Both the position numbers and the translations under genes were made by a program. Under the pieces are notes generated by a model that saw only the letters and a program-made list of their open reading frames with translations, was not told the DNA's origin and made no database searches. Positions 26,371 through 55,449 of a stretch of DNA of 64,000 nt are shown piece by piece. Source of the DNA: Chryseobacterium sp. LJ668 (GTDB lineage: Bacteria; Bacteroidota; Bacteroidia; Flavobacteriales; Weeksellaceae); NCBI RefSeq assembly GCF_019613955.1, contig NZ_CP080443.1:2341001-2405000 (forward strand), given 5' to 3'. The first letter of the stretch is position 1. Each line of letters starts with the position of its first letter.

Positions 26371-26401
26371 TTTGCGGTATAAGAAAATAGTTGTACTTTT
26401 G
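26371..26401 (+). promoter_or_regulatory. Promoter of rpsO
   Basis: TTTG at 26371-26374 and TACTTTTG at 26394-26401 are separated by 19 bases, an exact match to the Bacteroidetes housekeeping promoter consensus. The predicted transcript start leaves a leader of about 30 bases before the ATG at 26437. Confidence 0.8.
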
Positions 26402-26436
26402 CACCCGTTACATAATAATCATTAAACAATATTGGA

Positions 26437-26706
26437 ATGTACTTAACAACAGAAAAAAAAGCAGAAATTTTCGCAAAACATGGAAAATCTGCACAAGACA
26501 CAGGAAGTGCTGAAGGACAAGTTGCACTTTTTACTTTCAGAATCAATCATTTATCTCAGCATTTGAAGGCTAACCGTCATGACTTTGCTACTGAGAGATC
26601 TTTGGTAAAATTAGTAGGTAAAAGAAAAAGTTTGTTAGATTACCTTAAAAACAAGGATATCACAAGATATAGAGCAATTATTGCTGAACTTGGATTAAGA
26701 AAATAA
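26437..26706 (+). CDS. rpsO: 30S ribosomal protein S15
   Basis: 89 residues, the standard S15 length. It has the DTGSAEGQVALFTFRINHLSQHL core and the C-terminal LVGKRKSLLDYLKNKD rRNA-binding region. S15 binds the central domain of 16S rRNA early in small-subunit assembly. It has its own promoter and terminator; pnp, its usual operon partner in many bacteria, lies 1.5 kb downstream and is separated by a pagL-like gene. Confidence 0.97.
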   Translation: MYLTTEKKAEIFAKHGKSAQDTGSAEGQVALFTFRINHLSQHLKANRHDFATERSLVKLVGKRKSLLDYLKNKDITRYRAIIAELGLRK

Positions 26707-52109: not shown

Positions 52110-52967
52110 TCATAATATTCTAGGATTGTCTAAGATTTGCCTTATTTTGTTTGCATTTTCAATCAGTTCTCCTAAATATTCATAGTCTTCTTTTTCTAAA
52201 GCGGATTTAAATTTTCTGAGCTGAAAGATATGCTCATTCAAAACATCCAGTACATTTTCTTTATTTTGCTTAAAAATAGGAACCCACATTTCGGGATGAG
52301 ATTTGGCCAGACGTACGGTACTTGAAAAACCCGAACTCGCCAATTGAAAAATTGTTTCTTCTTCTTTTTCTTTCTCCAAAACGGTATTGGCAAGCGCGTA
52401 AGAGGTGATGTGTGAAATATGGGAAATGTAAGCGGTATGTATATCGTGGGCTTCGGCGTCCATATACATTAAATGCATATCCAGATTTTCAGCGAGATTT
52501 CGAACTATATTTAATGCATCTTCAGCAGAAACTTCAGAGTTACAAATTACTCCCGCTCTTCCTGAAAAACTATTGGCAGTTGCGGATTTGGGACCATTAT
52601 TTTCTGTTCCCCACATAGGGTGAAAGGCGACAAATCTTGATCTTTTCGGATGGTTTTTCACTGATTCTACAATTCCCGATTTTGTAGAACCTACATCCAT
52701 AACGGTTTGTGAATCTGAAATTAAATCTAAAACTTTCGGTAAAATCTTTCTTGCCGCATCTACAGGAATAGCAATAATAATTAAATCTGAATTGTTTATT
52801 CCGTATTTCAAATCTGCCTTCGCATCAATAATGTCTAAAGCCAATGCATCTTGTAAATTATCTATACTATGATCAATTCCGTAGATGAAATCGGCCCATT
52901 TTTTCTCTTTTAATTTTAAGGCGATGGAACCTCCAATTAATCCTACACCAATTATACTAATCTTCAT
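52110..52967 (-). CDS. tyrA: Prephenate dehydrogenase (tyrosine biosynthesis)
   Basis: 285 residues from the ATG at 52967 (MKISIIGVGLIGGSIALKL, Rossmann fold with GxGxxG). Other motifs are GIDHSIDNLQDAL, LIIIAIPVDA, VMDVGSTKSGI and FVAFHPMWGTENNGP (substrate-binding His). A C-terminal helical domain covers about 170-285. An in-frame extension of 20 codons upstream runs through a terminator hairpin, which I interpret as the attenuator, so the shorter start is correct. It oxidatively decarboxylates prephenate to 4-hydroxyphenylpyruvate. No ACT domain is present. Confidence 0.92.
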   Translation of the reverse strand: MKISIIGVGLIGGSIALKLKEKKWADFIYGIDHSIDNLQDALALDIIDAKADLKYGINNSDLIIIAIPVDAARKILPKVLDLISDSQTVMDVGSTKSGIVESVKNHPKRSRFVAFHPMWGTENNGPKSATANSFSGRAGVICNSEVSAEDALNIVRNLAENLDMHLMYMDAEAHDIHTAYISHISHITSYALANTVLEKEKEEETIFQLASSGFSSTVRLAKSHPEMWVPIFKQNKENVLDVLNEHIFQLRKFKSALEKEDYEYLGELIENANKIRQILDNPRIL

Positions 52968-52984
52968 TTTTTTTAATTTATAAA

Positions 52985-53011
52985 TAAAAAACCCCGTCCG
53001 CGGACGAGGTT
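52985..53011 (-). promoter_or_regulatory. Attenuator terminator in front of tyrA
   Basis: On the minus strand AACCTCGTCC pairs with GGACGGGGTT (10 bp, one G-U) around GC, followed by a U run. It ends 18 bases before the tyrA ATG. A strong terminator immediately upstream of its own gene is the mark of attenuation, not of an upstream gene's end; no other minus-strand gene ends here. Confidence 0.8.
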
Positions 53012-53033
53012 TGGTGTTATGTAACAAGAATCT

Positions 53034-53090
53034 CTATCCCAAATCTGAGTTGAAAATTCTATAATAATATGTTTTGTTTTTGCTAATCAC
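53034..53090 (-). CDS. Tyrosine leader peptide (tyrA attenuator)
   Basis: An 18-codon frame starting GTG at 53090 and ending TAG at 53036-53034 reads MISKNKTYYYRIFNSDLG, with three consecutive Tyr codons (TAT) at 53069-53061. It is immediately upstream of the tyrA terminator. TTTGG (53043-53039), after the Tyr codons, can pair with CCAAA (53014-53010), which overlaps the left arm of the terminator. Thus stalling at Tyr codons would free the antiterminator and open tyrA. GTG is the only plausible start in frame; a second short frame (53119-53087, MKLKITIFAL) ends overlapping it by two bases and might couple translation. Confidence 0.65.
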   Translation of the reverse strand: MISKNKTYYYRIFNSDLG

Positions 53091-53169
53091 AAAGCGAAGA
53101 TAGTAATTTTTAATTTCATTATTAAAATTGAATATTTACCTTCTAAGAAAATTGATCATTGACCCGTTG

Positions 53170-55449
53170 TTAAGGATTGCTGATAATCAATGTTGAAGGA
53201 ATATCCGAAAGCCAAAGACTTTTCGAATCTATCAAGCCACGCCAGCTTTTTTTGCTGATCAGCATGAGGTCCTGACCGTTCAGAAATTCTTTTTCGATTT
53301 TCTTTTCATTGTATAATGTAATGTGATTAGGTGCCACTTGCTCAATACTTCTAATAAGTTCTTTTACTTCGATGTTGCTTCTGATTTGGCCGGCAACGTC
53401 CAAAATAATAATCTGAGAATTGTTATTATTGATCAATCTTTTAGCATATTCAAGCAAATAAAAATCGCTTAGATTAAAGATCGGTACAAACACTTTTTCT
53501 GCTGAGGTAAATTGTTTTTCAACCAAAACCCCAACCGGAATATTTGTTTTATCTAAAATCTGAAGGGTAAAATCGTCAAATGGAGAATTGTTAAATATAT
53601 AACTTTTCCCTTTTACTGTATTCAACAACTTTTCAGGGTTTATTATTTTTGTGGTAAACCCTAAAAGACGTCCTAATAAACTGCCTTCATACATTGATTT
53701 TCCGAGCATTATAAGCAGCAAATCGTAATTTCCTTTATTTGAAATGCTGGTAAGATCACTTTCAATATCGGTTGACGCTTTGAAAAATGTAGTGACTTCA
53801 ACGTGTAGGTCATTTGATGTTTCTATCACGCTTTTAAACTGCTCATTTTCATACTCATCTATTTCGTAGGTATGCATCTCGTCAACAGGAGCAATATTCA
53901 TCGCGGTAATACTTTTGTTACCATTCATTTTGTGCGTGAAATTATTGGCTAATCTCAGAAGCGTACTTCCGGATTCAGGATTATCAAAAGATAGTAGAAC
54001 GCGGTATTTAGAATCATTTTCATCGTTGATCTCGTCCGGATCTTTTTTAGATTTAAACATGTAATTGATAAAATCTAACGCAGGTCCCGTCATGAATGTG
54101 GTAAATAATGCCATAATTACCATCATTGCAAAGATTTCGGGGCTTAAAACACCCAGATCATATCCGATATTTAATACAATTAGTTCCATCAAACCTCTGG
54201 TATTCATCAATGCACCGATTGTCAGACTTTCCTTCCAGTTGATTCCGAGGAATTTGGCAGTTAAAGCACTTCCTGCAAATTTCCCAACGACAGCCACCAA
54301 TATAATTGCTCCTGCGGTCACCCACAAGTGTCCCTCATTTAATAATCCGATTTGTGTTCTAAGTCCGGTAAATACAAAGAAAAGTGGTAGTAATAGAACT
54401 AAAGCAACATCTTCTATTTTATCAATAAATAATGATCTGAACTTTGCATTTTCAGGCATAATTGCACCGGCCATAAATGCCCCGAATAAGGCATGAATCC
54501 CAATTACTTCTGTTGCGTAGGCTGATAAAATCAAAGTCAGAAAGAAAATAGCAACCATCGGTTTATTGATGGTATTTTTTTCTGCCTGCAGGTCTCCGAT
54601 TCTTTTTAAAAAGGGTCTGACGATTTTTATCATTAGAAAAACATACCCTATTGCCATCAAAATGACGTAGATCGAGCTGGCAAAAGATCCTGCTTTTACG
54701 ATGGCAATCACTGCTGCCAAAATACACCAGGCCGTAATATCATCGGCCGCTGCACAAGTGATCACGATGGTCCCTAATTTTGTTTTCTGTAGATTTCTTT
54801 CCTGAACAATTCTTGCTAAAACAGGAAATGCAGTAATACTCATTGCAATGGCAATAAATAACGCGAATGAAGTAAACTGAACGCCGTCCGGAGCAAATTC
54901 CTGATAAATAAAATAGGAAAGTCCGATACCTAGAGCAAAGGGAATAATAATACTTGCATGGCTGATGACAACTGCATCGTGTGCTTTCTTTCTTAAAACA
55001 CTCAGATCAAGCTCCATTCCTACGATATACATGAAAAGGATTAATCCGATCTGGCTTAAAAACTGGAGATTTCCCAATGATTCTTTAGGAAAAAGAAATG
55101 CAGAAAATTCTGGAAAATACATCCCTAAAAGTGAAGGCCCGAGAATAATCCCGGCAATCATCTCACCGATAACGCTTGGTTGTTTTATTTTGATACATAT
55201 CCAGCCTAAGAGTCTTGCTGCAAGAATAATGGTGACAATCTGGGCTAATAATAATGCTAGAGGATGATGAAGGTTAGTCTGAAATGAATCTGCAAAATTA
55301 TCCCACGTAGAGCCGCTATTTGTTTTCACAATGATATCTTCACCAGCTTCAAGTGTCTGTCCCTGTATCATAAACCAATACATCAGGCATGAGAAAACTG
55401 CGATGGTGACAATATAAAAGATAATATTTCTGTACTTTGCCAAATTCAT
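53170..55449 (-). CDS. Cation:proton antiporter, CPA2 type, with C-terminal UspA-like domains
   Basis: 759 residues from the ATG at 55449; the frame extends seven codons to a TTG. One N-terminal helix and a periplasmic loop precede a Na+/H+ exchanger domain of about twelve helices (residues about 65-440), with QPSVIGEMIAGIILGPSLLG and AADDITAWCILA (the antiporter DD pair). The soluble C-terminal part (about 460-755) looks like two USP-like domains (YRVLLSFDNPESGSTLLRLA, KVFVPIFNLSDFYLLEYA). It exchanges K+ or Na+ for H+ across the inner membrane. Confidence 0.9.
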   Translation of the reverse strand: MNLAKYRNIIFYIVTIAVFSCLMYWFMIQGQTLEAGEDIIVKTNSGSTWDNFADSFQTNLHHPLALLLAQIVTIILAARLLGWICIKIKQPSVIGEMIAGIILGPSLLGMYFPEFSAFLFPKESLGNLQFLSQIGLILFMYIVGMELDLSVLRKKAHDAVVISHASIIIPFALGIGLSYFIYQEFAPDGVQFTSFALFIAIAMSITAFPVLARIVQERNLQKTKLGTIVITCAAADDITAWCILAAVIAIVKAGSFASSIYVILMAIGYVFLMIKIVRPFLKRIGDLQAEKNTINKPMVAIFFLTLILSAYATEVIGIHALFGAFMAGAIMPENAKFRSLFIDKIEDVALVLLLPLFFVFTGLRTQIGLLNEGHLWVTAGAIILVAVVGKFAGSALTAKFLGINWKESLTIGALMNTRGLMELIVLNIGYDLGVLSPEIFAMMVIMALFTTFMTGPALDFINYMFKSKKDPDEINDENDSKYRVLLSFDNPESGSTLLRLANNFTHKMNGNKSITAMNIAPVDEMHTYEIDEYENEQFKSVIETSNDLHVEVTTFFKASTDIESDLTSISNKGNYDLLLIMLGKSMYEGSLLGRLLGFTTKIINPEKLLNTVKGKSYIFNNSPFDDFTLQILDKTNIPVGVLVEKQFTSAEKVFVPIFNLSDFYLLEYAKRLINNNNSQIIILDVAGQIRSNIEVKELIRSIEQVAPNHITLYNEKKIEKEFLNGQDLMLISKKSWRGLIDSKSLWLSDIPSTLIISNP

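Follow-up and report, generated by a model that had tools for sequence, protein, structure and literature searches.

The tyrA gene of Chryseobacterium sp. LJ668 is preceded by a short open reading frame rich in tyrosine codons and by a hairpin of the intrinsic-terminator type, an arrangement that raises the question of whether the supply of tyrosine decides whether the gene is transcribed. We approached this question in the window (the whole stretch of DNA analyzed, 64,000 nucleotides) and in the tyrA loci of related genomes. The original prediction, drawn from the window's letters, was a tyrosine leader peptide that controls tyrA by ribosome-mediated attenuation. Its starting points stand: the 18-codon GTG frame with TAT TAT TAT is on the minus strand upstream of tyrA, and the terminator lies between the two (Table 1). 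In the window the terminator hairpin has 10 pairs and a loop of 4, and it ends 21 bases before the tyrA ATG at 52967. The fold of the whole leader has a z-score of -2.47, with 3 of 200 shuffles equally good. As set out below, the element very probably controls tyrA by ribosome-mediated transcription attenuation, with charged tRNA-Tyr as the signal.

Table 1. Features observed or proposed at the tyrA locus (window positions)
Feature	Position	Strand	Remarks
tyrA, prephenate dehydrogenase, the regulated gene	52110..52967	-	NF006307, 366 bits against a cut-off of 295
-7 promoter box TATCTTCG, consensus TAnnTTTG	53095..53102	-	ends 4 nt before the leader GTG
Leader ORF MISKNKTYYYRIFNSDLG, GTG start, stop TAG, 18 codons	53034..53090	-	119 distinct homologous leaders
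Sensor, three tandem Tyr codons (TAT TAT TAT)	53061..53069	-	
Antiterminator 5' arm GGATAGAG, overlapping the stop codon	53032..53039	-	window fold GGAU.GAG with CUCGUCC
CCTCGTCC, shared as antiterminator 3' arm and terminator 5' arm	53002..53009	-	
Intrinsic terminator, hairpin 53012-52989 and T-rich tail	52979..53012	-	compensatory changes
Possible protector hairpin (1:2 pairing)	53027..53060	-	in many Chryseobacterium-group leader folds

Three sets of tyrA loci were compared. In the genus set tyrA was found in 58 of 59 genomes, and the loci of 30 were used; the named-genome set contributed 80 loci, all from Chryseobacterium except one from a Weeksellaceae MAG; and in the family set (Weeksellaceae, to which NCBI assigns Chryseobacterium) tyrA was found in 114 of 148 genomes, with 110 of the 114 loci read. 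The sets overlap and some genomes occur twice, so the resulting 215 loci represent fewer genomes. A leader was called where a tandem Tyr run lay 35–90 nt before a terminator, or where the variant of locus L134 was present. By this rule 150 of the 215 loci have a leader: 123 of 125 in Chryseobacterium (g1), 20 of 20, 5 of 5 and 2 of 2 in three further genera (g9, g23 and g32, respectively) and 0 of 63 in all others. Conservation across four genera thus extends to the Tyr codons, the terminator and the association with tyrA, and the predicted class of regulation, ribosome-mediated attenuation, is borne out to this extent. Loci L017 and L051, which are the same record from one Chryseobacterium species, lack the whole leader and have a different intergenic region.

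The call rule requires Tyr codons and could therefore hide leaders that have lost them. A covariance model (R1) was built from 53 non-redundant leaders; run over the 65 tyrA loci without a parsed leader, it gave no match at E values up to 1. Loss of the Tyr codons from a leader whose other parts and tyrA are retained, which the original prediction had named as evidence against itself, was accordingly not seen at these loci, and L134 has lost one Tyr codon of three. Under the stricter filters that were applied to R1 searches of more than 40 genomes, strong matches (E 2.2e-8 or better) were found in 80 of 197 family genomes, all belonging to g1, g9, g23 or g32, and the next match had an E value of 5e-4. 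There is one strong match per genome, with the exception of a fragmented assembly that has two (G455), and in the genomes where tyrA was mapped the match lies directly before it. Among 296 genomes of the order, searched under the same filters, every strong match fell inside the Weeksellaceae. Twenty weaker matches were examined as further leaders and resemble ordinary terminators or unrelated stretches. The pattern formed by the antiterminator and terminator arms (seg2..seg3) gave 24 matches in 21 of the 30 genus genomes. By their coordinates, 20 lie at tyrA; the four elsewhere (two in G009, one in G010 and one in G025) were considered as paralogous leaders and look like chance.

At nine leader-less loci of other genera, tyrA lies mostly behind other genes on the same strand. 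Six of these (in g26, g11, g2 and g7) have an alanine dehydrogenase-like gene and a small gene upstream, and one (in g21) has prephenate dehydratase-like and aminotransferase-like genes, the names of these neighbors having been judged from their translations. Separately, some leader-bearing loci have additional DNA between the terminator and tyrA. Six g9 loci (L125, L131, L138, L142, L145 and L152) contain about 60 nt with ATGAAACGCTTTGCGTTC..CATCTGACA, a stretch that could fold into a short hairpin or code for a small peptide, and C. formosense (L055, 2900-3000) has about 90 extra nt between the attenuator terminator and the gene.

Three Tyr codons are present in 118 of the 119 distinct leaders. 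The triplet is TAT TAT TAT in 64, TAT TAT TAC in 51, TAT TAC TAT in 3 and TAT TAT GAC in 1. This last is L134 (g9), in which the third Tyr codon has become Asp and which offers a natural comparison between two sensor codons and three. Within Chryseobacterium, mean pairwise identity among 36 leaders reaches 0.94 in the Tyr codons, 0.83 in the 21 nt that follow them and 0.87 in the -7 box; the 36 remain from a non-redundant g1 set of 40 after L144 and three divergent leaders were set aside. Between genera the peptide shares little, as is evident from MISKNKTYYYRIFNSDLG (window), MKTMNTTYYYAILTLKKD (g9), MKMNNAYYYSNLNDR (g23) and MFNQATYYYELTT (g32): the Tyr triplet is common to them and, in most, so is a preceding Thr or Ala. 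Divergent peptides also occur within g1, in four leaders, for example MKANAQHYYYFSEIVFG (L045).

These patterns of conservation bear on two other roles that the leader might have. One is that, besides attenuation, the terminated leader RNA of about 100 nt or its peptide acts in trans. Such a role is known for the trp leader of S. meliloti, an RNA that begins with the start codon and that acts in trans, as does its peptide (PMC7298713), and the Chryseobacterium-group peptide is conserved beyond what attenuation alone would seem to need. The peptide differs in other genera, however, and we regard an added function in trans as unlikely. The second alternative is that ribosomes are halted by the peptide itself, acting as an arrest peptide, or by free tyrosine as a ligand, and not by the state of tRNA charging. 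Three Tyr residues in so short a peptide, conserved within the Chryseobacterium group, could be read in this way. Against it, the peptides of different genera are unrelated except for the Tyr triplet and, mostly, the residue that precedes it, and known arrest peptides are unlike a peptide that varies so much between genera. We therefore give arrest by the peptide or by free tyrosine very little weight. Stalling for want of charged tRNA-Tyr is the reading that we prefer.

The original prediction built the antiterminator from TTTGG, in the last codons of the leader, and CCAAA, overlapping the terminator. Both halves occur in 1 of the 119 distinct leaders, the window's own, and this pairing is abandoned. 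The alignment of relatives proposed as a check had a divided outcome, with conserved Tyr codons and compensatory changes in the terminator on the one side and the failure of TTTGG/CCAAA to be conserved on the other. A mutually exclusive antiterminator can form, and its position is conserved, but it is made of other elements. The conserved partner of the terminator 5' arm is GGAY, at or overlapping the stop codon, which pairs with GUCC; the site reads GGGC or GGGG in 12 of the 119 leaders. To represent the nascent transcript, we placed a stalled ribosome on the second Tyr codon and folded the RNA downstream of it, with the terminator 3' arm not yet made. Of 53 non-redundant leaders, 50 paired GUCC with the GGAY site, allowing for a shift of one position. 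The probability of the exact register averaged 0.89 and was at least 0.5 in 49 of the 53; three folded in another register. In the window the nascent fold joins GGAU-a-GAG to CUCGUCC with an energy of -6.8 kcal/mol.

In the terminator, 96.2% of cells are paired across the 53 leaders, and its covariation score was reached by none of 500 shuffles. In the antiterminator, 79.6% of cells are paired, against 22–53% for slid partners, although the cutting of A3 at the site favors this register. Its covariation is weak (the score was matched by 49 of 500 shuffles and the percentage paired by 228 of 500) because there is little variation in either arm. GUCC retains its last C in 118 of 119 leaders, even though the terminator base facing this C is A or T in 44 of 119. 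Just outside GGAY, the flanking pair in the 53 leaders is G-U in 31, A-U in 11, G-C in 4 and C-G in 3, and is unpaired in 4; the next pair outward is unpaired in 34 of 53. When flanking pairs were permuted in the non-redundant set, the first did better than its permutations (P 0.004), the second worse (0.987) and the third marginal (0.064); for the 119 distinct leaders the values were 0.0008, 0.998 and 0.0002, figures to be read with the caveat that the anchor rule misplaced some GGGCTAGG leaders.

The energy of the antiterminator is unremarkable. Measured against dinucleotide shuffles, the duplex energy reached P 0.05 or below in none of the 119 leaders, the arm being one base short in many. 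Nascent-fold energies had a mean z of -0.73 against shuffles, 12 of the 53 leaders reaching P ≤ 0.05, and the window's own antiterminator is unexceptional (z +0.33 and +0.12). The nascent folds do make more pairs to the terminator arm than their shuffles, with a mean of 9.5 against 5.8. A protector hairpin was also considered as a conserved part of the leader and was rejected, since it formed in none of nine g9 leaders folded.

The GGAY site lies 18–21 nt from the last Tyr codon in all 119 leaders, whereas relative to the stop codon it ranges over 11 nt, from -4 to +7. The two are arranged as GGA|TAA in most g1 leaders and as GGAT|TAG in g9; in g23 and in one g32 leader the site immediately follows the stop codon, and in L190 it lies 7 nt past the stop. 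Because the distance to the sensor is fixed while the frame and the stop codon move, the RNA site is kept apart from the coding frame. A constant distance fits the geometry of stalling and is hardly explained by coding constraint. A ribosome reaches about 12 nt past its A-site codon. On the distances observed, a ribosome stalled at the Tyr codons would leave the antiterminator arm free and one at the stop codon would cover it. The leaders form a natural series for the mechanics of attenuators in Bacteroidota, in which the distance from sensor to antiterminator is fixed and the stop codon drifts across the site.

A site so constant as RNA might instead be bound directly, by an RNA-binding protein or as part of a tyrosine riboswitch, leaving the ORF an accessory. 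The near invariance of the GGAY site and of CCUCGUCC would suit such an arrangement. Over the leader, however, all Rfam families stay below their cut-offs, and the leader folds are devoid of elaborate aptamer-like structure. T-box elements were likewise not detected, either in the window at the gathering score or in 52900-53200 at E values up to 1. The Tyr codons and the position of the start codon are, moreover, among the most constant features of the element, so a protein or riboswitch is a shade less credible even than an arrest peptide. Elsewhere in the window, at 26394-26439, the S15-Flavobacteria ribosomal protein leader (Rfam RF03161) scores above its cut-off.

The constancy of the start codon extends to its promoter. 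In 117 of 119 leaders exactly 4 nt separate a TAnnTTnG box from the start codon, and in the remaining two the gap is 5 nt, a spacing that is partly built in for those leaders where the box was used to pick among several in-frame starts. The start codon itself is GTG in 103 and ATG in 16. The least probable account of the locus, in which the hairpin serves only to end transcription of the antiporter gene and the short Tyr frame arose by chance, can draw on an antiporter gene that ends upstream on the same strand and on the abundance of terminators here (1 found in 1.7 kb and 1.2 expected from shuffles; a terminator alone at tyrA is no surprise), but it is at odds with a -7 box and leader that are conserved next to DNA at chance identity (0.29 observed and 0.29 expected, 61–100 nt upstream of the leader start in the same 36 g1 leaders) and with a Tyr triplet and a distance to the antiterminator that are kept across genera.

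In F. psychrophilum the sigma-A box is described as lying at -12 to -5, and leaderless mRNAs as making up 5.5% of those examined (PMC9723704). A box that ends 4 nt upstream would by this measure make the start codon +1, and the leader mRNA is probably leaderless. From the parts described above we infer the start site, the stalling, the switching and the physiological direction of the response as follows. Transcription would start at the leader's own start codon, and the first ribosome would initiate on an mRNA that is leaderless. A shortage of charged tRNA-Tyr would stall this ribosome at the Tyr triplet, and the GGAY site, some 20 nt downstream and around the stop codon, would remain free. 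GGAY could then pair with the GUCC of the emerging CCUCGUCC before the terminator 3' arm exists; the terminator would be blocked and tyrA transcribed. When tyrosine is plentiful, the ribosome would get to the stop codon and cover the GGAY site, CCUCGUCC would pair with GGACGGGG, and transcription would stop.

We put at about even the chances of a more specific proposal, that some genera of Weeksellaceae possess a family of tyrosine-only attenuators in which GTG or ATG is at +1 and leaderless initiation is a working part of the device. If this is true, the first ribosome would load once the start codon exits RNA polymerase, with no Shine-Dalgarno step. The tyrA leader would then be a tractable case of leaderless initiation in a flavobacterial group that has been described as lacking Shine-Dalgarno sequences (PMC9723704).

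Two other loci of the LJ668 genome have a similar appearance. A trpE-like gene (L317, C1 near 45422; 415.9 bits, under the TIGR00564 cut-off of 517.7) is preceded by the short frame MFNTSNNFWWWHSNSSSGLKLLSCC, which contains three Trp codons; its ATG comes exactly 4 nt after a -7 box, TACATTTG, and a terminator-like hairpin follows. The gene hisG (L316, C1 near 3090235) is preceded by a His-rich frame, MKPNFLTVHHYHHLC, with tandem His codons and a terminator-like hairpin. Here the -7 box lies 18 nt before the ATG, and the stop codon is followed directly by GACGG, which is complementary to CCGTC of the hairpin's 5' arm. With Trp and His leader frames in the same genome, the Tyr leader is probably one of a set, and the recurrence of the 4-nt spacing between box and start at the trpE-like gene suggests a shared flavobacterial design.

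We also considered whether the leader is linked to loss of the phenylalanine branch. Prephenate dehydratase (PF00800) was not found in the LJ668 genome (G000) or in G183, but 107 of 148 family genomes have it as pheA, among them genomes that bear the leader. A link to loss of pheA was therefore rejected, and the Tyr switch appears to be independent of that gene. No Phe leader was recognized before pheA in six upstream regions. The search for leuA (TIGR00973) in the LJ668 genome was also negative, and auxotrophy of this strain for Phe and Leu is possible.

The best reading of the leader is that it works like a classical ribosome-mediated attenuator, of which it shows the tandem sensor codons, the terminator, the alternative pairing and the geometry. 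In the E. coli trpL and pheL attenuators, an antiterminator and a terminator are mutually exclusive. The leader peptides of these systems are described as containing codons for the end product of the pathway, ahead of a biosynthetic gene (PMC11802643). The tyrA leader is like them in both respects. It differs in that Tyr would be sensed, the start codon is probably +1, the antiterminator arm lies at the stop codon and a conserved protector hairpin is absent. Phe_leader (Rfam RF01859) is the same kind of element and gives a weak match at 52983-53080 (E 0.13); with 22.4 bits against a cut-off of 55, the tyrA leader is not a member of that family. What sets it apart is the amino acid that it would sense, together with its probable +1 start codon. 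No Tyr leader before tyrA was found in searches of the open-access literature; the work of Lopatovskaya et al. 2010, reportedly a comparative study of attenuators, may overlap with ours.

For the leaderless start there is a precedent in the trpL attenuator of S. meliloti (rnTrpL/peTrpL), the RNA of which begins with the leader's start codon (PMC7298713), yet that system senses Trp, is alphaproteobacterial and starts with ATG. Among flavobacteria, "strong clues" for leader-peptide attenuation before amino acid biosynthesis operons, together with TAnnTTTG promoters, have been described in F. psychrophilum; tyrA is absent from the main text of that report, whose account of these leaders names no Tyr leader (PMC9723704). 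Leader-peptide attenuation having already been suggested there, the tyrA leader adds to a known kind. The one Tyr-codon leader peptide that we found described in the open-access literature is AroR of C. glutamicum (Neshat et al. 2014), which is presented as acting by ribosome stalling in aromatic synthesis; its sequence includes Phe-Tyr-Phe, and its control of the aroF operon depends on Phe rather than on Tyr (PMC11802643). The leader described here differs from AroR in having three Tyr codons only and in preceding tyrA. If our reading is true, tyrosine would join the amino acids that are read by leader peptides, at the gene that commits prephenate to tyrosine.
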